Assembly (NCBI GenBank): GCA_944327245.1
Contig: CALVHD010000010.1
Coordinates: 1 to 58,671, forward strand
Reading direction: 5' to 3'
DNA from: Candidatus Gastranaerophilales bacterium
GTDB lineage: Bacteria; Cyanobacteriota; Vampirovibrionia; Gastranaerophilales; Gastranaerophilaceae
DNA length: 58,671 nucleotides
The notes below the pieces were generated by a model, which saw only the letters and a list, made by a program, of their open reading frames with translations, ran no database searches and was not told the DNA's origin. Within the stretch, counting starts at the first letter, position 1, and every line of letters begins with the position of its first letter. Positions 47,609-58,582 of the stretch are shown piece after piece. The position numbers were made by a program, and so were the translations under genes.

Positions 47609-49075
47609 ATGTTTGATTATTTTAAAAATATTGCGGAAAAAAACTCATGCCAGTCTATTGGCGTATGTTCGGTTCATCCGAGCGTAAACTCTTTATATGA
47701 AATACTTTTAATGCAATTAAGAGATATATCATATTATCTTGTTAAATTAAAAGAATTTGGCTTTTTGAACAACAACATCATGAATGTTGTAATAGAAACT
47801 CTATCAACATTTTTAATAAATACAAATTTCAATCAAAGCAAATATCTTAATTTAATAATAAAATTGCACAACATTAAAGAAGAAACAAAAGATAAATATA
47901 TAAATTATTGCTCTGTGCATAAATTCCCTTGCGAAGTTATTAATACTGATTTCAAAATCAACGAGAAAACAACAATATCTGAATTAATTAATTATTCTCA
48001 AAATACAATCATGAACAAGCAAAAAGACTGCGATAGAAAAAAACAACGTCTTTTTGAACTTATTACACTTCAAGCAAAATTATGCGCAATTACCATATCA
48101 AAAATAAAAAAACTTGATATAAACTTTAATGAATATGATTATGAAGTTATAAGATTTTTTGCTCTTACAAACGGATATTCAATTAGAGATGAAAAAATCA
48201 TAAGAAGAATAAAAGAATTTTCTAATATTTCAGCCCAATCAAAAGAAAAACTTAATTTAATATATAAAGAAAAATATGGAAATAAAGAAACTGCTTCTAT
48301 TCTAACTTCTGCACAAAAAGGGCACTCTATCCTTGTTTCAGGAGATGATCTTGATGAACTTGAAAAAGTTTTAAAAACTCTTGAAGAATATGACCCCAAA
48401 ACCCCAATAAACGTATATACAAACGGCGCATTGATTTTGGCCCATTTTTATCCATATTTTAAAAATAATAAATTTTTAAAAGGACACCTCGGAAAAGATA
48501 ACACAGAATATGAATTTTCAGTATTTCCGGGGTCAATTTTAATAACAAAAAATTTCGTCCAAAAAATAGACACCTTATATCGTGGTGAAATATTTTCCAA
48601 TAAACTCATTTCATTTGAAAAAGTTTTTGATATAGAAAATAACGACTACAAACCCCTGATTAATTCTTGTTTAAACACAGAGGGATATACCAAAAATCAA
48701 GAAAAAAAATATCTTAAAATCACATATGATATTCAAGAAATACAAAAAGCTCTTGAAAATATAGAAAACGAAGAAGTAGTTTTAATTGCAGGAAAACCTG
48801 ATGATAACTACATTGGAGAATATAAAAATAAAAAAATAATTACCTTCAACTGGCCTTTAGAAGAAGATATCATGATAAAATCAATAAAACATTTAAAAAA
48901 TAAAAATATAAAAACTTCAATCTTCTTCTCTCAATGCAACCTTTCAAGCATAGACACAATTCTTTCTTTGTTAAACGAAGAAATTAATATCTATCTTGCG
49001 CAATGTTCTTCATTTTTAATTAACCCTCATGTTATTGAAGCCTTAAAAGAAGATTTCAAGGTTAACATAATATAA
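47609..49075 (+). CDS. Hybrid-cluster-protein homologue lacking metal ligands
   Basis: A 488-residue relative of hydroxylamine reductase (HCP)/CO dehydrogenase-type proteins. The N-terminus CQSIGVCSVHPSVNSLYEIL, the ILVSGDDLDELE and INVYTNGALILAH segments, and the C-terminal FLINPHVIEALKEDF match HCP in order. Yet the hybrid-cluster ligands are altered: Asp246 where HCP has His, Ala274 where it has Glu (GEML becomes GALI), Phe316 where it has Cys (TTNCI becomes TKNFV), and only two of four N-terminal Cys remain. So it probably does not reduce hydroxylamine. Its role is unknown; a related group with this form may exist in other anaerobes. Confidence 0.82.
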   Translation: MFDYFKNIAEKNSCQSIGVCSVHPSVNSLYEILLMQLRDISYYLVKLKEFGFLNNNIMNVVIETLSTFLINTNFNQSKYLNLIIKLHNIKEETKDKYINYCSVHKFPCEVINTDFKINEKTTISELINYSQNTIMNKQKDCDRKKQRLFELITLQAKLCAITISKIKKLDINFNEYDYEVIRFFALTNGYSIRDEKIIRRIKEFSNISAQSKEKLNLIYKEKYGNKETASILTSAQKGHSILVSGDDLDELEKVLKTLEEYDPKTPINVYTNGALILAHFYPYFKNNKFLKGHLGKDNTEYEFSVFPGSILITKNFVQKIDTLYRGEIFSNKLISFEKVFDIENNDYKPLINSCLNTEGYTKNQEKKYLKITYDIQEIQKALENIENEEVVLIAGKPDDNYIGEYKNKKIITFNWPLEEDIMIKSIKHLKNKNIKTSIFFSQCNLSSIDTILSLLNEEINIYLAQCSSFLINPHVIEALKEDFKVNII

Positions 49076-49077
49076 AA

Positions 49078-49109
49078 TAAACCTCCTATATTTAGGAGGT
49101 TTATTTTTT
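49078..49109. terminator. Bidirectional intrinsic terminator
   Basis: TAAACCTCCTA (49078-49088) and TAGGAGGTTTA (49093-49103) form a perfect 11-bp stem with a four-base loop, followed by TTTTTT on the plus strand and preceded by an A run. It separates the convergent HCP-like and GH13 genes and can serve both. Confidence 0.88.
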
Positions 49110-52100
49110 AATGTGCTCCGTTATATACAGAATTATATTTCCATTTTTCCAAATTCGGATTTGGTACATAAAAAGTTAAAACAGTATCATCAATTTTTAT
49201 TTTTCCCTTTGGTGACATAATTTTTCCATCTTTTACTATGTAATTTATGCCATCGTCAACATATTTTTCTTGTTTATCATCATAAACTTTTCTTCTCAAA
49301 ACAGTGTTGTCGGGAAGTCCGCCAAGACCTTTTTCGTCTTTAATTTCAATTGAATTAACACTATGAACTTCATCAAAATCTGCACCAAGTCTAGATTCAT
49401 TGCCTTTGGGCAAACGATTTGAAGTTACGACACTTATAACTTTTGAACCATTTTCATCATATTTCAATATCGGCCACATTTCTAAATCATCTTGTTTATC
49501 AACATTTAACGATATCGGATAGCCTTCTCTTAAAGCTCTTAATTGAGGGTCTTTATATAATGAAGAAATAGCTTGCATTTTGTTATAATAAGAGCTATAT
49601 CTGGAGTCATTCTTCAATCCGTGAAGAATTTCTCCCCTATTTCCAACATACACATTCTTAGACGGTGTTTCATAACCCGTTTGAGCAAATTCAGCACCAT
49701 TATACAATGTTGGAGTTCCAACTAAAGCATTTACTACTTGCCACAATGATTGTTGTATATTCATAGATTTTGACAACATTCCTTTATGGAAATCAAGCAT
49801 TTTTTCTTTATCATCAATTCCTGCTCTTTTAAATAACATTTGTATTGTAATTTCATATGGAGTTACGCCGAATGCCTCAGCTGTTCTAAAATCAGGTTCA
49901 TCACCTTCTTTAACGACCCCATTTGCTAAATCTTTCAAAGAAGCTAATAATTTTTCTTTTACTTCAGGATTATTGGCATATTTTTTGTCAATTTCTTTTT
50001 TCATAACCTGAGCAACAGCAATAGCTTTAGAATTAATTTCTTCATAATCATCTCTGCCGGTAATTTCAGTTGCAATTTTCTTGTCTTCATCTGAACAATT
50101 TGCCAAATTACCGGATAGATATAACTTCATATCTAAAGGTAGTGCATGCAATAAGCGAGGTTTATCATGGTTTTCATAGAATACATGCGAATACATAACA
50201 GTATGAGGCTGACTATGTTCCATTAAATGTTTTGTTTGTTCTTTTAAAAATGAAACATTTCCCGCCTTATCGCCGACGCCTTCATATCTTTCGGGATTTA
50301 CGCCTGCAAACATGGATAATCTGTTGAAATACTTGTCGTAATTTGAACCTGTTGTTGCGCCAACCTTTTCCAAGAACTGTTGTTCTTTAACATAAGCAAC
50401 GTGGTTTTCATAATCTGAAGCGTAGTAATCTTTTGAAAATCCTGCTTGTGAAACCAAACCACCAAATAAATTTAAAACTTTAGTTCTGTTATCATCGGGA
50501 ACACCGGATTCTTTAAAATAATCTATTCTATTAGCATCTTTGTCATAATATTTTTCAGCAATTTCAAGAACAGCTTTTCTATCTTCATCAGTTATATTAC
50601 CTGTTTTTAAAACATTAGCTGCGGCCATAAAACCCTGTTTATCAATTGAATCACCTGATTTTTTAGCAATCTCGACAAGCGAATTAGCCGTTCTTTCCAA
50701 AAAATCATTTGTTATATCTGGAGCAAATCTTCTCATAGAAGCAACATTGTTCCAATCATAAAAACTGCCAAAATCAGTTATTTCAAGAACAGTATAAGCT
50801 GACGGATTATATTTTTTAACATTTTTTATAAAATCAGACCAAAAATCTGCAACACTGGGCAATATACCACTCTCATCCCAAACTTCATGAAGCGTAGAAT
50901 AGCCGTTTCTAACAGAATCTAAATCAGCAATATCTTTTGCAGCATCAAAACGCCAATTTAAACCACCCTTGCCCATTTCAACAATAGCTTCCGCTTGTCT
51001 AAAATCTTCAAGCGAAATATGGGATAATTCTTTTTTAATTTTATTTCTGATTAAATAAACGTCACGAGATGTAATAGATTTTTGCAATTTTCTTACAACT
51101 TGTTCTCTTTCATCTTTAACATTTATGGGTCTGTGCTTTAACAATGAATTTAAAGTAACTTTTTTCAAGGCGTCTAAATCTATTAAACCCTTAGAATCAA
51201 TTAAATCAGGCTTAAATGAGCTTACTATAAGGCTTTTTAATATTTCGTTTGCATAAACCTTAACAACATAAGTTCTATATTTATCATCACCTTTATACTC
51301 ATCAGGTATTACTTCACTAATAGTAGTTTCAACAATATCATTCAATTTATTAAAAGTATCTTCATTTAAATACTCTTCCCTAAATTGAGGTTCAGAAAAT
51401 ACTGCAGCCAGCTCAGGGCTAACTTCAATTGATTGCAAAGGAAACTCTCTGATATAATCAGCAACTTTTTTACCTTCAGATAAAACTCTTGAAGGTATCT
51501 GTTCAGGATTTTTTTCAATTTGTTCCATCTGCTCAGCCGTAATATCGTTGTTCAATGCAATTTGTTTTTTAGTATTTTCATTAGCCATAGCGGTTCTTAA
51601 AATGAAATCACTTTGAATTGCTTCAGTCCAAAATGAAGCAACACCAAGAAGATAATTTCTTGCATTTCTTATGCCGTCAATATTTTCTTTAGTATTTTCA
51701 GGATTAGACAAATTCATTTTAACAAGATCGACATTACCATCCCAAAAAGAAGCCCCTGCAACGTGTTGTCTATCTGATATTTTAAAATTATCAAATGATA
51801 AAAATTTATTTAAATCTCTAAAATCTTTGATATACACAAAATTTTTATCATTAAAAATCTTCATTCTGGAATCATCCGGATCTACTTCAAAATAGAAAGG
51901 ATGAACAGAATCAGGATAACCTATTACTTCAAAATCTTCTTTTGGTGTAATATCATAACTTGAAATTAATTCTCTTTCATTATTTATTTGCTTTTTGCTT
52001 GCCATGCGGCTGTCAAAAAACTGAATATAAGTTGGCTCTTTTCTGTTATAGCCTTCTTTTTTAGGATTAACAACCCTAATACCCAATGTAGGATATGGAT

Positions 52101-52992
52101 ATTCCTTGCCCTCTTCAGGCATTTTTGGCAATACACCAAGTACAATATTATCTTGTAATTTTAGCATATTATAAAACGGTGAATTTTTGCCCCATTTTAA
52201 TACATGTGCTACCAAAGGCGACTGAATACCTTGAGAAGTAAAAGCGCCATCTGCCACATAACCCTTGCCCAATTTAAACAAATCAAAATTTAAGTCTTTA
52301 AAATCTTCAATATTATTACATTGATATAAATTATTAGACCAATATTTATGTGGAGAAATCGGGTCAACACCAATATCAGGAGTTGTAATTATATATCTAT
52401 AAGGATCTAACTCACCCGTTTTTAAAAGCGCATCAAGACCTTTTAGGCTGCCGCCCAGCTTATTAAAATGATTTCTTCTAAAATCGCTTACTTTTGTTTT
52501 TCTAACCTTGTTATCTATATAAACAGCATCAGAATCAACAAAGCTATGGCGCATTGTTCCTGCTTTAGGAGAAATTCCGTAATTTCTTCCGAGTTCAATT
52601 ATATTTAATTTTGCACCATCTTCTGTTTCAAGACTTTTAAACCCGTCAGTTAAATATCTTGAAGAAGAGCCGTCTTTTTTTGCTATTTTATATCTATATA
52701 CAAAAGCTGGAATTTCTATTTTGTCTACAATATCTTTATTAATTTGAATTTTGCCGTTTTCATCAAACTGAATTAATCTAAAGTCCTCTTTTTTCGGCAT
52801 TATATAGCCGCTTGAATCTTCTTTTTTAGCTAGAAAAGCAAGCTCTAAATATGCATCTTCTTGCAAAGGATTATATGGAGGGGCAGTAAAATCAAACACA
52901 GGAAGACCTGTTTTATGGTATGTGCTTTTAACCCCTTCAAACGAAATTTGTTTTTGTTTAGCTTTTTCAAGTTTATTAATTGATAAATCCAT
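49108..52992 (-). CDS. Giant GH13-type protein with long insertion
   Basis: A 1294-residue protein with alpha-amylase family motifs: region I-like YVADGAFTSQ (Asp248, but the usual Asn-His is Ser-Gln), region II GGLNWRFDAAKD (Asp683), region III TVLEITDF (Glu737) and region IV ENHDKPR (Asp943). All three catalytic acids are present. About 430 residues separate regions I and II, far more than usual, and the inserted part is helical and charged. No signal peptide is present; the N-terminus has the ISFEG motif. GTPTLYNGAEFAQTGYE near 1065 is amylase-like. It is last of a four-gene operon and may act on alpha-glucan inside the cell. Confidence 0.82.
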   Translation of the reverse strand: MDLSINKLEKAKQKQISFEGVKSTYHKTGLPVFDFTAPPYNPLQEDAYLELAFLAKKEDSSGYIMPKKEDFRLIQFDENGKIQINKDIVDKIEIPAFVYRYKIAKKDGSSSRYLTDGFKSLETEDGAKLNIIELGRNYGISPKAGTMRHSFVDSDAVYIDNKVRKTKVSDFRRNHFNKLGGSLKGLDALLKTGELDPYRYIITTPDIGVDPISPHKYWSNNLYQCNNIEDFKDLNFDLFKLGKGYVADGAFTSQGIQSPLVAHVLKWGKNSPFYNMLKLQDNIVLGVLPKMPEEGKEYPYPTLGIRVVNPKKEGYNRKEPTYIQFFDSRMASKKQINNERELISSYDITPKEDFEVIGYPDSVHPFYFEVDPDDSRMKIFNDKNFVYIKDFRDLNKFLSFDNFKISDRQHVAGASFWDGNVDLVKMNLSNPENTKENIDGIRNARNYLLGVASFWTEAIQSDFILRTAMANENTKKQIALNNDITAEQMEQIEKNPEQIPSRVLSEGKKVADYIREFPLQSIEVSPELAAVFSEPQFREEYLNEDTFNKLNDIVETTISEVIPDEYKGDDKYRTYVVKVYANEILKSLIVSSFKPDLIDSKGLIDLDALKKVTLNSLLKHRPINVKDEREQVVRKLQKSITSRDVYLIRNKIKKELSHISLEDFRQAEAIVEMGKGGLNWRFDAAKDIADLDSVRNGYSTLHEVWDESGILPSVADFWSDFIKNVKKYNPSAYTVLEITDFGSFYDWNNVASMRRFAPDITNDFLERTANSLVEIAKKSGDSIDKQGFMAAANVLKTGNITDEDRKAVLEIAEKYYDKDANRIDYFKESGVPDDNRTKVLNLFGGLVSQAGFSKDYYASDYENHVAYVKEQQFLEKVGATTGSNYDKYFNRLSMFAGVNPERYEGVGDKAGNVSFLKEQTKHLMEHSQPHTVMYSHVFYENHDKPRLLHALPLDMKLYLSGNLANCSDEDKKIATEITGRDDYEEINSKAIAVAQVMKKEIDKKYANNPEVKEKLLASLKDLANGVVKEGDEPDFRTAEAFGVTPYEITIQMLFKRAGIDDKEKMLDFHKGMLSKSMNIQQSLWQVVNALVGTPTLYNGAEFAQTGYETPSKNVYVGNRGEILHGLKNDSRYSSYYNKMQAISSLYKDPQLRALREGYPISLNVDKQDDLEMWPILKYDENGSKVISVVTSNRLPKGNESRLGADFDEVHSVNSIEIKDEKGLGGLPDNTVLRRKVYDDKQEKYVDDGINYIVKDGKIMSPKGKIKIDDTVLTFYVPNPNLEKWKYNSVYNGAH

Positions 52993-53042
52993 AACTCATC
53001 CTTTACTGTTTAATTTCCCTTTTGATGAAATTTTTTAACCTT

Positions 53043-54938
53043 TTACAGATAATTTTGCTGTAATACATTTTCAGGCTTAGATAATTTTTCAATATCTTTA
53101 TCATCAATTTCAAAGACACAAGCCCTGCCTGCGCCCAATTCCGTTATCAATGAACCTTCACCGTCATTTTGAAATTTGCATTCAGCGCCATAACTCGGCA
53201 TTAAATTTGCGAATTTTTGTTCGGGTTTAAGTCCCGGTATTTCAATCTTTCCGCCAACTTTAAGATTAATATTTCTATTGCCGACAAACACCAAGGTTTT
53301 ACCGTCTTTATGTCTTGCAAAAGCAATAATTTCGGGGTTATTTGTAGGCAACACTATAAATGAACCTTTTGTAATAACATCTTGAGCGTTTGTCATCGAC
53401 AATTTATTTTTATTATTTAATTCATTATATTTTCCATCTCTAAGTGCAAATGCTGCTTTGACAACTTCTGATATTTCAGGAGAATTGCCTCCCGGTTTTC
53501 TGGATTTATTAAATATATCTATTCTGCCTGAATGAACCTTGCATTCATGCTTATCAGTTTCAGAATCTCTTACAAGAGCATGTTCATAAGGATATAAATA
53601 ATAATCGCCCGTTTGCGTACCATCAACCATATATGGGTTAACTTGAGGCAGCATACTTTGTAATATAGTTGTAAACATTACCCAAGGAGCACCGCCATAC
53701 AACATTGGAGATTGGTCATCATGGGTTGCAAAAGAACCTATTAAAGACTTAGGACCGCATTTTGCACCTATTTCATTATTTAAATTAATATTTTCTTTTA
53801 CATAATCATATAAAACATCCGCTTTTGTCCAATCGCTATAATTATGATATTGACCATAATAGCTGTCAAAACCAACTTCTAAAAGCTCTTTTGGTCTATC
53901 ATAAGGCATATTTAATTGCGGAGAAGCATCTTCATGGGTGTATGTTTCAGCTAACCAAGCAAATTGCGGATCTTTAGCCCTTGAATAATTAATAATTACA
54001 TGCCAAAACTCAACAGGTCTTGCCCTGCCTACGTCTGCTCTTATGCCATCCATGCCTAAATCAACTGACATATCAACGTACTTTTTAAGCATATCTACAA
54101 GAGGCTTATTCAAAACACGATTTTGTTCATCCTCAAACGATTTCAACATTCTAATATCTTGCCAGCCTTGAGGAACTTTTTCTTTTCCATCGGCGCCAAT
54201 TTCCATTAATTCAGGATGATCTTTTGCAAAATCAACACTTGCACAAGATGGTAAATCAAGCATTACCTTAATACCACGCTTATGACATTCGTCAATATAA
54301 TATTTGCATTGAGCAAAAGCTACATCGGGGTCATTTTTATCCATTTTCTCAAGCTTTTTGCCCGTTTTTTGTTCATATAATTCTTCTATTCTTTTTCTTG
54401 CTTCAATAGGCGGATTTTCGTCAACCAATTCAGGGTCAAGCGCTAAAAAGTCTTTTGGTGCATATAATGAACCCGCTGTACCCATAGCATGGGTTTTTCC
54501 TGTAGGATGAATGGGTAGAACATGCAGAGTATTAAAGCCTAAGTTTTTGATTTCATCCAATCTATCAACAGCGTTTACAAAATTTCCTGAAATTTCATCG
54601 CCTTGAATTAGTTCATTTCCGTCTTTATCTTGAGCATTCATTGTCCTTAAAATTACAGCTAAAATATTAGCTTTATTATGAGTCAACATATCTCTTAAAT
54701 CGTTTTTATAATTGGGAACTCTTTTTTGAGCTTCCGTAACATTTTGAACAGAAGAAACATCGGTCTTAGGAAGTATTGTTTTACTTTGCGCCAAAAGCAT
54801 TTGAGCCAAAAGAGGACTTACCATTGATAATTGATAATCGTCTTTTATTTCTTGTTTTTCTTTTGTTTGCACTGTCGGAGTTGATGTGTTAACCGTTTGA
54901 GCAGGCATTTGCGCCAACCTTACATTATTTATTGACAT
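53043..54938 (-). CDS. GH13 alpha-amylase-family protein
   Basis: A 631-residue alpha-amylase-family enzyme. Residues about 90-480 form the barrel with region I IKVMLDLPSC (Asp228), region II GMDGIRADVGRARP (nucleophile Asp302), region III FAWLAETYTHED (acid Glu331) and region IV SFATHDDQS (His406, Asp407). A C-terminal beta domain (about 530-610) follows. The N-terminal 60 residues are Gln/Thr-rich and disordered-looking, with no signal peptide. It starts in a TAATG overlap with the upstream gene, with GGAGGTG upstream. Substrate specificity is not clear from sequence. Confidence 0.88.
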   Translation of the reverse strand: MSINNVRLAQMPAQTVNTSTPTVQTKEKQEIKDDYQLSMVSPLLAQMLLAQSKTILPKTDVSSVQNVTEAQKRVPNYKNDLRDMLTHNKANILAVILRTMNAQDKDGNELIQGDEISGNFVNAVDRLDEIKNLGFNTLHVLPIHPTGKTHAMGTAGSLYAPKDFLALDPELVDENPPIEARKRIEELYEQKTGKKLEKMDKNDPDVAFAQCKYYIDECHKRGIKVMLDLPSCASVDFAKDHPELMEIGADGKEKVPQGWQDIRMLKSFEDEQNRVLNKPLVDMLKKYVDMSVDLGMDGIRADVGRARPVEFWHVIINYSRAKDPQFAWLAETYTHEDASPQLNMPYDRPKELLEVGFDSYYGQYHNYSDWTKADVLYDYVKENINLNNEIGAKCGPKSLIGSFATHDDQSPMLYGGAPWVMFTTILQSMLPQVNPYMVDGTQTGDYYLYPYEHALVRDSETDKHECKVHSGRIDIFNKSRKPGGNSPEISEVVKAAFALRDGKYNELNNKNKLSMTNAQDVITKGSFIVLPTNNPEIIAFARHKDGKTLVFVGNRNINLKVGGKIEIPGLKPEQKFANLMPSYGAECKFQNDGEGSLITELGAGRACVFEIDDKDIEKLSKPENVLQQNYL

Positions 54939-57337
54939 TATTTAACACCTCCATTTTTATTTTCTTCCTCAGGAAATTCGTTTTTAATCTTTCCAAAGAA
55001 CGGTTGAACCAACAATGTTACCGCAATTAAAGCAGCCGTCATAGGAACAAATATCCTTGCCCAGCTCTTATTGTTATAAATCTCAGTTGCACGTTTTCTA
55101 ATTGCATCGGAAAAACTCAAAGATCTTAGATAATCTTTTTCTTTATTTGGATCTATTTTTCCTAAATTTTCAACTACTTCTTTTATATTAAAACCTGAGG
55201 TTTCATAATCAAATTTTTTAGAGTCATAAATAAAACCTTTTAGCACATTAAATTCTTCTTCATTACCAAGATTAGCTTTATTTGCATATACTGAAGAAGA
55301 TCCATCGTAAACTAATAAACGTGCAGCACTAAGCAACTTCTCAAAGTTACCTTTAATTTGTTCAGGATTACCGCTTAACAACCTTGCATCTTCAAGAGCA
55401 GTTTTAAATTCACCGTTTGCAACTCTTCTTTCAAAATTACTGCAAATTAATGCTTTTGCTTTTATTGCTTCAATAGAAATTATTTTTCCATTTTTGAAAT
55501 TAGTTAAAAATCTTAACAAATCGCTATCTTCACCTTTTTTTATTCCAATTAAGGCATTATTTAAATTTTTAAATACCTCATTATCACTTGCAGATTTTGC
55601 ATTAGTTACAATGCTTTCAATATTTTTTCTTTTAACAAATTCTCTAGTAGTTTCTAAAAGATCAGCATCCATTGAAACTGATAAGAAATTACCAAGTTCT
55701 TTTTGATATTCTTCTTTAGATAAATTTTTTGTTCTTTCTGCAAAAGCTTTAAAATAATCAGTCAAATATTCTTGTGCTTTAGTATTTCCAACACCTTGAT
55801 TGATAATTTTTCCTAAATCATCATAGCTAAAATCAAGCCTTTTCATTAATTTATCTAACTCGGCAAGATATTCTTTAGTTGTCATAGATTCTGTTTTTGA
55901 ACCCATAACGGAATTAAATAAATTCATATAAGCTTTAAATCTGCCTCTAACTTCAGGTAAAACAGATTTATTATATTCTTTTATTGTTTCAAAGAATGTT
56001 GAATTATCAAATGTCAACCTTTTTTCTACAGAACTGATTTGAGAACTGCTCAAGCCCTTGTTTTCTAGAATTTTTCTTAAACCGTTTAGTGTTTTATCGG
56101 CGCTTTTGCTAAAGTCTTCTAAAATTTGTTTTACATCTATTGTCTTTGATGTAGCTGGTGGAATACCGGCTCCTGATAACAATAAATTATCTGCAGCTTC
56201 AACAGATTTAATATTTTCAAGAGCTTCTGATAAACTATCTTGTTTAACAATTGCAGTAGCAGACTGGATATTCCTTAGAGCATCCACTAAAGTATTAGGA
56301 TGGAAATTTTTTATTGCTTCATTACTATCCTGATCTTTAAACATTTGATAAGACCTTTTTACAACTTCACCGCTTTTTGTCTTAACATTGTCATACGGCG
56401 TATTTATTTGAAGCATTTCCCCTAATCTTTTAAAGAATAAATCATCAACATTTTTAGTTGAATATTCTTTAAATAAATTTTCTATTCCGTCAACATTTCT
56501 GACATCTGCCTTAGCATTACTTAAATACTCTTCTAAACCTGATTTTAGAATTACATTAGAACTTTGTTCCATAAACGGTTTTGGTGTAATTATATCCCTT
56601 GCCTTTTTATAATCTCTATCAATAACCGCATTTTTAATTTTTGGTTCTATAATATTACCTGTCATTGCAGTCAATAATGGAGTTGCAAAACCTGCTGTTG
56701 CCATCCATAGAGTCCTATTTTGAAGCGCAAGTTTTTGTTTTTTTCTTAAGATTTTTTCTTTACCGTTTGGACTATCATAATCTATGCCCGTTCTTTTGCC
56801 CATTTCTCTTAAATCTTTTTCAGAATATACATCGGTAGGATAAAACTGATTATCTAAATGGATATCTTTTTCATCCCCTTGAGCACTAATATATCTATCG
56901 CCTATATCAAGACCATGTACAATCTTTGCTGGCAAATTAATAAACAATTTCGGCCATAAACTCATAGAGGCAAAAAAGGTAGTTCCGCCGACAAATTGCA
57001 TTATTGCGTCTGTCTTTGTTTTTGCTCTGCTTGCTAAAAATGAAGCAATTACAAGCGCACCAAGCTTCATGCCAAGATCGTTTATTCTGCCTAAATTATT
57101 GTCGCTTAGTTTACCGTCTTTAACCGCTACAAAAAAGTTTTTACCGTCTTTTAAAGTATTTTTAATTGAATGAGAAACACCGCCTTTTACCAATCTTGCC
57201 TTTGGGGCATTAGGTTTAACATCGTTTGCATGACGGGTCAAATCATCATAAACTTTATCAAAATTATTTTCTTTATGAATACCGTTTTTATTGTTATGTT
57301 TTAAAGAATTACTTAATATCGGGCTTATATAACTCAT
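54938..57337 (-). CDS. Large membrane-anchored protein of unknown family
   Basis: A 799-residue protein I do not recognise. Hydrophobic segments lie at about 90-135 (LGALVIASFLAS, then FVGGTTFFASMSLW), 205-225 (LWMATAGFATPLL) and near the C-terminus (about 760-785, MTAALIAVTLLVQPFFG). The long middle (about 240-750) is helical and charged, probably cytoplasmic. No signal peptide. The ATG at 57337 is chosen over 57343 because GAGG lies seven bases upstream and it makes a TAATG junction. Its stop overlaps the GH13 start the same way. It may anchor or organise the GH13 proteins; that is inferred. Confidence 0.72.
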   Translation of the reverse strand: MSYISPILSNSLKHNNKNGIHKENNFDKVYDDLTRHANDVKPNAPKARLVKGGVSHSIKNTLKDGKNFFVAVKDGKLSDNNLGRINDLGMKLGALVIASFLASRAKTKTDAIMQFVGGTTFFASMSLWPKLFINLPAKIVHGLDIGDRYISAQGDEKDIHLDNQFYPTDVYSEKDLREMGKRTGIDYDSPNGKEKILRKKQKLALQNRTLWMATAGFATPLLTAMTGNIIEPKIKNAVIDRDYKKARDIITPKPFMEQSSNVILKSGLEEYLSNAKADVRNVDGIENLFKEYSTKNVDDLFFKRLGEMLQINTPYDNVKTKSGEVVKRSYQMFKDQDSNEAIKNFHPNTLVDALRNIQSATAIVKQDSLSEALENIKSVEAADNLLLSGAGIPPATSKTIDVKQILEDFSKSADKTLNGLRKILENKGLSSSQISSVEKRLTFDNSTFFETIKEYNKSVLPEVRGRFKAYMNLFNSVMGSKTESMTTKEYLAELDKLMKRLDFSYDDLGKIINQGVGNTKAQEYLTDYFKAFAERTKNLSKEEYQKELGNFLSVSMDADLLETTREFVKRKNIESIVTNAKSASDNEVFKNLNNALIGIKKGEDSDLLRFLTNFKNGKIISIEAIKAKALICSNFERRVANGEFKTALEDARLLSGNPEQIKGNFEKLLSAARLLVYDGSSSVYANKANLGNEEEFNVLKGFIYDSKKFDYETSGFNIKEVVENLGKIDPNKEKDYLRSLSFSDAIRKRATEIYNNKSWARIFVPMTAALIAVTLLVQPFFGKIKNEFPEEENKNGGVK

Positions 57338-58368
57338 TAGCATACCTCGTATTCTTTATTAGTATCAACTTTAGTTTTAACAGTGTTCGGATTTGACTTA
57401 AATCCGATTGTAGGAACAATCCATGCCAATAAAGTTGCTATCGCACTCGCACCAATTAAAACTTTTCCGTAATTTCTTGTTATGATATTTCTATCAGTGC
57501 CCTCCCACAATTGTTTTCCTGCCTCAACAGTAGCTTTTGCAACGCCTCTTAGAAAATCTGCAACATTTTTTAAGCTGGTCATTTTTGGTAACCTCAACTC
57601 TTCAAATGCCTTTTGAGCCCCAAAAGCAACTCCTGTAGCAGCTACAATATATTTTGATATATTTTCCATTGCGGTTGCTCTGATTTTTAATTTCTTTGTT
57701 TTTTCATTTATTAACTGTCCGGGATTATTCAATTTTTCTTTAAACCCTGCTTTTTTAGCCTTTTCATCATCAAGAGCAAATACATTGCCATGATTTAATT
57801 CTGCATCTTTTGCAAGCAAGTCTTTTCTGAAAAATTCAGCAGAATCATAGACTCCGGGGTATTGTATTCTGACAAGTCCCTTTTCTTGACCCGGCTCAGG
57901 AAGTTCATTGACTTTTTTAATATATTTTAAATCCAAATCCACACCCGTTGAAGCGTTTATCATTGTTCTTGATAATTTTGTTGAGGCCCATTTACCTATT
58001 CCATAGGCAATAACACCGGCTGTCATTTTTCTAAAGCCCCTGCCTGCAGCATGTGCATCGGTTGCATTAAATTTACCCCTTGCAGCACCATATAAAGCAA
58101 TTAACATTGCACTTCCCACAATATAAGGAACCATGCCTAAGGATAAATATTCATAAAAATCGCTATTTTTAGAACCTGCAAACCCCTTTGGAAAATAAGT
58201 TAAAAAATCATTTGTTAATTTATGAGCTCCTGCTTTTACACCTGATAAAGGACCTTGTTTATGTATATGAGATTCCTCTTCAAAAAATTTCTGTTTTTGT
58301 TCTTCTTTCGATACGTAATAACCTATTCTTGGAAGACTGTCAACGCTGGGACTTTGGATTTGTTGCAT
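57337..58368 (-). CDS. Membrane protein of unknown family, operon start
   Basis: A 343-residue protein with membrane segments at about 75-100 (GMVPYIVGSAMLIALYGA), 115-135 and 300-325 (GKVLIGASAIATLLAWIVP), and basic loops. No signal peptide and no family recognised. The ATG at 58368 is preferred over an in-frame GTG at 58392, because GGAG lies seven bases upstream. It is first in the operon and shares a base with the next gene. The style matches the proteins at 35320-36662. Confidence 0.72.
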   Translation of the reverse strand: MQQIQSPSVDSLPRIGYYVSKEEQKQKFFEEESHIHKQGPLSGVKAGAHKLTNDFLTYFPKGFAGSKNSDFYEYLSLGMVPYIVGSAMLIALYGAARGKFNATDAHAAGRGFRKMTAGVIAYGIGKWASTKLSRTMINASTGVDLDLKYIKKVNELPEPGQEKGLVRIQYPGVYDSAEFFRKDLLAKDAELNHGNVFALDDEKAKKAGFKEKLNNPGQLINEKTKKLKIRATAMENISKYIVAATGVAFGAQKAFEELRLPKMTSLKNVADFLRGVAKATVEAGKQLWEGTDRNIITRNYGKVLIGASAIATLLAWIVPTIGFKSNPNTVKTKVDTNKEYEVC

Positions 58369-58582
58369 AATTACTCCAAAACAACTACACACTTATATAA
58401 ACAACACTAAATTGCAATTTTTGCCTTTTTATATTAAATATTCTTAACAATTTGTAATATTAACAACAATCCGAAAAAGCACGCCCAATACGACTTTTAA
58501 ACTTATGAAAATATTTTCATCAACACATTGTTCGAATACTTAACCTATTGCCAACACCATAAAAAATTTCTAAAATAGTAAT
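58369..58582. promoter_or_regulatory. Divergent intergenic promoter region
   Basis: This 214-base AT-rich gap separates the GH13 operon from the truncated + strand ORF. On the minus strand TTACAA and TATAAA are about 18 bases apart, a fair promoter for the operon, followed by a leader of about 70 bases. A near-palindrome TTGTAATATTAACAA lies close to the -35. The exact start is not known. Confidence 0.3.

Follow-up and report, generated by a model that had tools for sequence, protein, structure and literature searches.

Two membrane proteins without known family and two GH13 enzymes encoded by a conserved gene set of Gastranaerophilales: a candidate membrane platform for alpha-glucan processing

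Bacteria of the order Gastranaerophilales are common, poorly understood gut bacteria. These non-photosynthetic cyanobacterial relatives possess a conserved gene set that has apparently gone undescribed so far. It joins two membrane proteins, here called A and B, which are well modelled and match no entry of Pfam, NCBIfam or the PDB, to two GH13 enzymes, C and D, whose catalytic residues are intact. The reading that we prefer, and that we hold to be somewhat more probable than its contrary, is that A and B would make up a scaffold with C and D docked on it, and that alpha-glucan would be processed at the cytoplasmic face of the membrane.

The window, that is the whole stretch of DNA that was analysed, is 58,671 nucleotides long and corresponds to an entire contig of a 1.7 Mb genome. 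ORF calls place four genes on the minus strand within 49108-58368, transcribed in the order A, B, C and D, in agreement with the original prediction made for this DNA. The genes and their overlapping junctions are the following:

57337..58368, minus strand: gene A, membrane protein of 343 aa with four conserved hydrophobic helices (ORF, hydropathy, AlphaFold)
54938..57343, minus strand: gene B, membrane protein of 799/801 aa with four conserved hydrophobic helices (ORF, hydropathy, AlphaFold, A-B profile homology)
53043..54938, minus strand: gene C, GH13 enzyme of 631 aa without signal peptide (PDB profile matches, catalytic residues)
49108..52992, minus strand: gene D, very divergent GH13 enzyme of 1294 aa with large insertions and without signal peptide (PF00128 in homologues, PDB profile)
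57335..57339, minus strand: A/B stop/start overlap TAATG (read from the sequence)
54936..54940, minus strand: B/C stop/start overlap TAATG (read from the sequence)

Gene A has an alternative GTG start at 58392, giving 351 aa, and gene B encodes 801 aa, or 799 aa if it starts at the TAATG. The TAATG overlaps and a gap of 50 bases between C and D had also been pointed out beforehand, and the junction sequences agree. In relatives, the median gap is 0 between A and B (130 junctions), -1 base between B and C (122 junctions) and 57 bases between C and D, and these values make the junctions far more than a matter of chance. The start of gene A lies about 280-300 bases from the contig end. Since the gene upstream of A is divergent in three same-genus relatives (L038, L076, L077), the operon most likely begins here, with A probably its first gene. 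At the other end, D converges on a hybrid-cluster/prismane-type gene (47609-49075), which encodes a prismane/hydroxylamine-reductase-like protein of 488 aa that scores far below the curated cut-offs; in same-genus relatives, a gene related to it adjoins D.

The original prediction had named a neighbourhood survey as a check, and a finding that the four genes are not conserved together as the result that would speak against it. The survey shows that A-B-C is conserved across families and that D co-occurs with it, though often moved. In a sample of 117 genomes of the order, A is present in 109, B in 110, C in 112 and D in 107; B directly follows A in 108 of the 109 genomes with both, and C directly follows B in 107 of 109, counts that overstate the independent evidence, as many of the sampled genomes are close relatives. 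The order A>B>C recurs in loci of families f1 and f3-f7, although almost all of the surrounding genes differ, and the adjacency is kept over several families at 20-30% identity for A and B. D follows C in the genus of the window, in two other genera of the same family and in several deeper families, and is located elsewhere in most genera of the window's own family; most parsimoniously, the four genes once formed one A-B-C-D cluster that D later left. Across 13 loci from the class and 80 taken from named genomes, which are for the most part metagenome assemblies of Gastranaerophilales and 'Melainabacteria', 47 read ABC and 31 ABCD.

The gene set extends beyond the order. Specifically, a search for B in 146 genomes of the class placed it, besides the window's own family, in two further families outside the order, f9 and f15, where A>B>C is again intact and where D lies beside A, on the other strand, in 7 of 13 loci. 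In this class sample B and C occur together in 65 of 65 genomes and are both absent from 81, and D accompanies them in 63 of the 65 and is absent from all the others; as all positives fall within three families, and the Fisher test of the co-occurrence takes no account of phylogeny, the independent evidence is smaller than these counts suggest. The two genomes with B and C but without D are G045 and one that is 56% complete, and a single B match in family f10 (G119, 19.9 bits) was left out of the counts. In the rest of the phylum sample, the A profile retrieved nothing credible. The independent evidence does include, however, that D stays with the A-B-C set also in genomes where it is no longer linked to it.

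A and B had been described as membrane proteins with multiple hydrophobic segments and of no recognised family, for which HMM and structure searches were recommended. In hydropathy profiles averaged over homologues, each has four helices, at residues about 74-92, 115-133, 233-251 and 304-322 in A (66 homologues) and about 87-105, 117-135, 211-229 and 765-783 in B (67 homologues), the third helix of B being separated from the fourth by a long variable helical region. Profile comparison shows the two proteins to be distantly paralogous (hhalign 97%, E 1.7e-11, 190 columns), and they follow a common plan, in which two close helices, a conserved segment of 60-80 residues and a third helix precede a C-terminal last helix. 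AlphaFold models reach a pLDDT of 85 and a pTM of 0.80 for A, and 85.5 and 0.80 for B. Pfam and NCBIfam models gave no match above cut-off to A and B of the window, the 66 homologues of A no meaningful match to family models, and PDB sequence searches with A and B no usable one. Moreover, Foldseek with the two models returned nothing at E<=0.001 among solved structures, and VIA-align of A reached a Z of at most 5.9, with generic helical bundles; the Foldseek and VIA-align rows that name V-ATPase, ClyA and BAR-domain proteins were judged to be of this generic kind. In the PDB, the B profile matched coronavirus spike and designed helical proteins; these matches fall in its long helical region and are treated as coiled-coil artefacts. 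Positive-inside charge counts around the helices of A and B gave no decision on topology. The description of A and B as being of no recognised family stood up to Pfam, NCBIfam, PDB sequences and PDB folds, with no family match and no convincing solved fold.

Enzyme C has neither a strong hydrophobic segment nor a signal peptide. Its profile matches solved GH13 enzymes in the PDB, in particular 4gkl (E 8e-27) and 1gju (E 5.2e-23), and also 3dhu, and GlgE (PDB 3zss) aligns to profile positions 123-314 (E 9.3e-16). R300, D302, E331, H406 and D407 do not vary among 25 homologues of the order (25 of 25) and are nearly invariant outside it, where the catalytic D302, E331 and D407 are kept in 11 of 12 sequences. 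From the GH13 region II/III/IV motifs, these three residues are located as follows:

54033..54035, minus strand: C catalytic nucleophile D302
53946-53948, minus strand: C acid/base E331
53718-53720, minus strand: C D407

With the catalytic Asp/Glu/Asp present and homology to solved members of the family, C is a GH13 enzyme with intact catalytic residues, and it looks catalytically competent. Its best two-part profile match is the Thermotoga maritima maltosyltransferase / maltodextrin glycosyltransferase (1gju, GH13), extending over the catalytic region, the C-terminal part and, towards the N-terminus, the 'RT..A.D..G' segment. The GH13 catalytic residues are retained in C, but identity is low, region I reads DLPSCAS and not the usual D...NH, and the gene of C accompanies that of a membrane protein or is fused to it. 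The 'HPE' and 'W/YQDI' segments of GlgE (alpha-maltose-1-phosphate:glucan maltosyltransferase) have similar counterparts in C; however, GlgE PPKKYQDI corresponds to PQGWQDI in C, with Gln/Gly and not Lys at the aligned positions, and this difference makes it unlikely that C is a plain GlgE. The lysine of the GlgE motif presumably helps to bind phosphate, a role that was not mentioned in the literature checked for it. Within GH13, C probably belongs near maltosyltransferase and GlgE, as a transferase/amylase.

In three genera of f9 (L199, L200 and L202), B and C form a single ORF of 1030, 986 and 1082 aa, respectively, with B in the N-terminal half (profile E 3e-41 to 5e-50), C in the C-terminal half (profile E 6e-128 to 2e-154) and the last hydrophobic helix of B just before the GH13 domain. 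The fusion directly shows that a covalent bond between C and B can occur, and with it a tethering of C to the membrane. The three fused sequences are one clade in the C tree (support 100/98) and thus derive from one fusion event, in a clade that lies outside the order of the window. In unfused genomes B and C overlap by a base or a few, and, by analogy with the fused form, contact between the two proteins is likely there as well; we regard it as likely that B tethers C to the membrane. The original proposal that the membrane proteins hold the enzymes is supported for C by the fusions, the strict gene order and the co-occurrence; as for D, we infer its attachment. One genome that carries the fused form has a second A-B-C cluster (L201; G138:C12), and its C homologue, with P and Y at the aligned columns, seems to lack the His-Asp of region IV, which may reflect an inactive enzyme or a misalignment.

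A second GH13 of the C kind, C2, is present in nearly every sampled genome of the window's own family (L222-L233 and, in the own genome, L220:3345-4883). With 422-506 bits against the C profile, its homology to C is clear, and it belongs to the same GH13 branch, in which it forms a separate clade with a support of 100/100. In contrast to C, C2 is exported, with a signal peptide in 13 of 13 proteins examined (N-termini judged by eye), and has no linkage to A/B. As the original prediction had it, neither C nor D has a signal peptide; set against C2, this indicates that both enzymes are most likely cytoplasmic, and they would probably operate at the cytoplasmic face of the membrane.

Enzyme D, again with no strong hydrophobic segment, is recognised through its family. 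The window's D has no Pfam match at E<=1, and single-sequence NCBIfam and PDB searches returned nothing usable; PF00128, the alpha-amylase model, is found in 13 of 26 D homologues (best 5.4e-25), and the best PDB match of the D profile is 1ea9 (E 3.2e-26). R681, D683, E737, H942 and D943 are invariant in 33 sequences (26 of 26 of the order and 7 of 7 outside it). The catalytic positions, taken from the GH13 region II/III/IV motifs, and an N-terminal motif, taken from conservation and position statistics, are located as follows:

50944..50946, minus strand: D catalytic nucleophile D683
50782-50784, minus strand: D acid/base E737
50164-50166, minus strand: D D943
52933..52947, minus strand: D N-terminal motif I-S-F-E-G, residues 16-20

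D thus has the catalytic Asp/Glu/Asp and matches the alpha-amylase model via its homologues, not by its own sequence; it is a very divergent GH13 enzyme with intact catalytic residues, visible by family profiles only, and appears catalytically competent. The initial assignment of both enzymes to GH13 was correct, with the proviso that D needs its family to be recognised. A direct C-D profile comparison was weak as GH13 evidence for D, and the family Pfam and PDB profile matches were used in its place. The nearest solved relatives of D are cyclomaltodextrinase, maltogenic amylase and neopullulanase (1ea9, 1sma, 1vfm), which we take to be members of subfamily GH13_20. Motifs of regions I to IV are found in D as well, the likeness being one of barrel sequence only; however, D has about twice their length, with large insertions, carries an invariant F-x-G motif at its N-terminus and is, in the window's own case, missed by the Pfam alpha-amylase model. 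The probable activity of D is that of a maltogenic/neopullulanase-like hydrolase or transferase.

The N-terminus of D consists of a polar leader followed by hydrophobic-x-F-x-G. F18 is present in 26 of 26 and G20 in 25 of 26 sequences of the order, and both in 7 of 7 from other families of the class, a conservation on par with that of the catalytic residues. Within the first 40 residues, the strict motif occurs in 46 of the 68 D proteins and in 40 of the 127 A proteins, and it is nearly absent from other stretches. Among 1433 neighbouring proteins there was no N-terminal excess of the motif, and a general feature of the proteome was dismissed, as the strict pattern has 7 matches in the own genome and 6 in the reversed control; these two results make F-x-G specific to D, part of A and few others. 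That it acts as a docking or sorting signal linking D to the A/B platform is a guess.

A hydrophobic-x-F-x-G/A after a polar leader is also seen in L123:79-2199, L106:2321-3955, L092:3062-4549, L033 and L036. Besides D, it is thus found in many homologues of A and in a few unrelated proteins, and it may be a sorting or docking signal.

In the model that we propose, A and B would constitute a dedicated membrane scaffold, C would be docked directly on it, and D would probably be docked via its N-terminal F-x-G segment or via A. C and D, as complementary GH13 enzymes, would lie side by side on the cytoplasmic face of the membrane and would together remodel or mobilise alpha-glucan of the cell itself, or else maltodextrin that it imports. 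We infer the substrate, the direction of the reaction (to build or to digest) and the identity of the membrane; the original prediction had suggested storage glucan and an internal membrane or granule surface. Gene order, co-occurrence, the fusion, the intact catalytic residues (kept throughout in C and D, with one exception outside the order), the lack of signal peptides in C and D and the A-B paralogy all speak for the model. On the other side, the fusion is a single event outside the window's own order and D is unlinked in most genera of the family. The attachment of D therefore rests on co-occurrence and ancestral adjacency, and for its docking on the same platform as C we see the balance as even. 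As to the substrate, the original prediction had cited a GH57 enzyme and a sugar ABC ATPase as fitting a glycan economy. Both are present in the window, the GH57 enzyme being of the branching type and the ATPase MalK-like, and the genome also encodes a GT5 glycogen synthase and several GH13 proteins; with these genes alpha-glucan is made or handled, and the setting is plausible. It is likely that C and D both act on alpha-glucan.

A further point against the model leads to a different role. In many genera of the window's own family, genes like kdsD, kdsC, queD and uppP (names read from the Pfam matches SIS+CBS, HAD, PTPS and BacA) stand directly upstream of A on the same strand (e.g. L051:2123-4822), and could indicate the envelope and not storage glucan. 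As kds and uppP are envelope genes, and A and B membrane proteins, C and D might be placed at the cell-envelope membrane, where they would build or trim alpha-glucan or another sugar of capsule, LPS or peptidoglycan. Such a role appears unlikely, as only some genera of a single family have these upstream genes, and A-B-C has other neighbours in the deep families, in the genus of the window and in the class families outside the order; besides, C and D have no signal peptide, unlike the exported C2, and the solved GH13 relatives act on alpha-glucans. To a similar degree improbable is a coupling to uptake, in which A/B would keep C and D close to a sugar transporter of the inner membrane and maltodextrin would be broken down on entry. 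In these gut bacteria the exported C2 of the same genomes could supply oligosaccharides, the window holds the MalK-like ATPase, and the nearest solved relatives of D degrade maltodextrins and cyclodextrins; however, the loci that were compared have no conserved gene for a transporter linked to the cluster.

That A and B are themselves a channel or transporter, with C and D as co-expressed enzymes acting on the cargo, we consider decidedly improbable. Four membrane helices in each protein and a paralogous pair would fit a heteromeric transporter equally, but the B::C fusion and the large variable helical region of B favour a scaffold, and no similarity to a transporter fold rises above generic helical bundles. 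Linkage conserved passively, with no functional coupling, might gain from the overstated counts among closely related genomes; the persistence of A-B-C adjacency over several divergent families while the flanks change, the fusion, and the joint absence from the rest of the class render it hardly credible.

Bacterial glycogen and maltodextrin enzymes are normally regarded as soluble. The gene set suggests, instead, that glucan is processed at the membrane and not free in the cytoplasm. A and B are new families and the arrangement is new, whereas the enzyme chemistry (GH13) is known. The original prediction had singled out this operon as the best candidate for an undescribed system; the survey fits this view, and literature searches for the gene cluster found no description of it. 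In the passages found of two early genome papers on the group (PMC3787301, PMC4040986), starch and glycogen use is treated in general terms and the cluster is not described, and none of the words transmembrane, membrane-bound and membrane-anchored appears in the part consulted of a long review from 2024 on alpha-glucan enzymes of prokaryotes (PMC11046441). If the preferred reading is true, a near-universal operon of the lineage that ties two GH13 enzymes to the membrane would represent a new way to localise carbon metabolism and a signature system for Gastranaerophilales, for which its absence from other families of the class offers a ready comparison; moreover, two uncharacterised, well-modelled protein families are put on the map. 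A broader proposal, that A/B are a new membrane platform, restricted to part of the class, which organises cytoplasmic alpha-glucan enzymes and recruits D through F-x-G, is conceivable though doubtful. Should A/B be a general metabolic platform, their importance would be greater.

A fragment of D, 66% identical to the D of the window, was also observed in a genome of another genus that has its own D (G070:C17:10-2460); it begins at the very end of a contig, which we ascribe to contamination or recent transfer.
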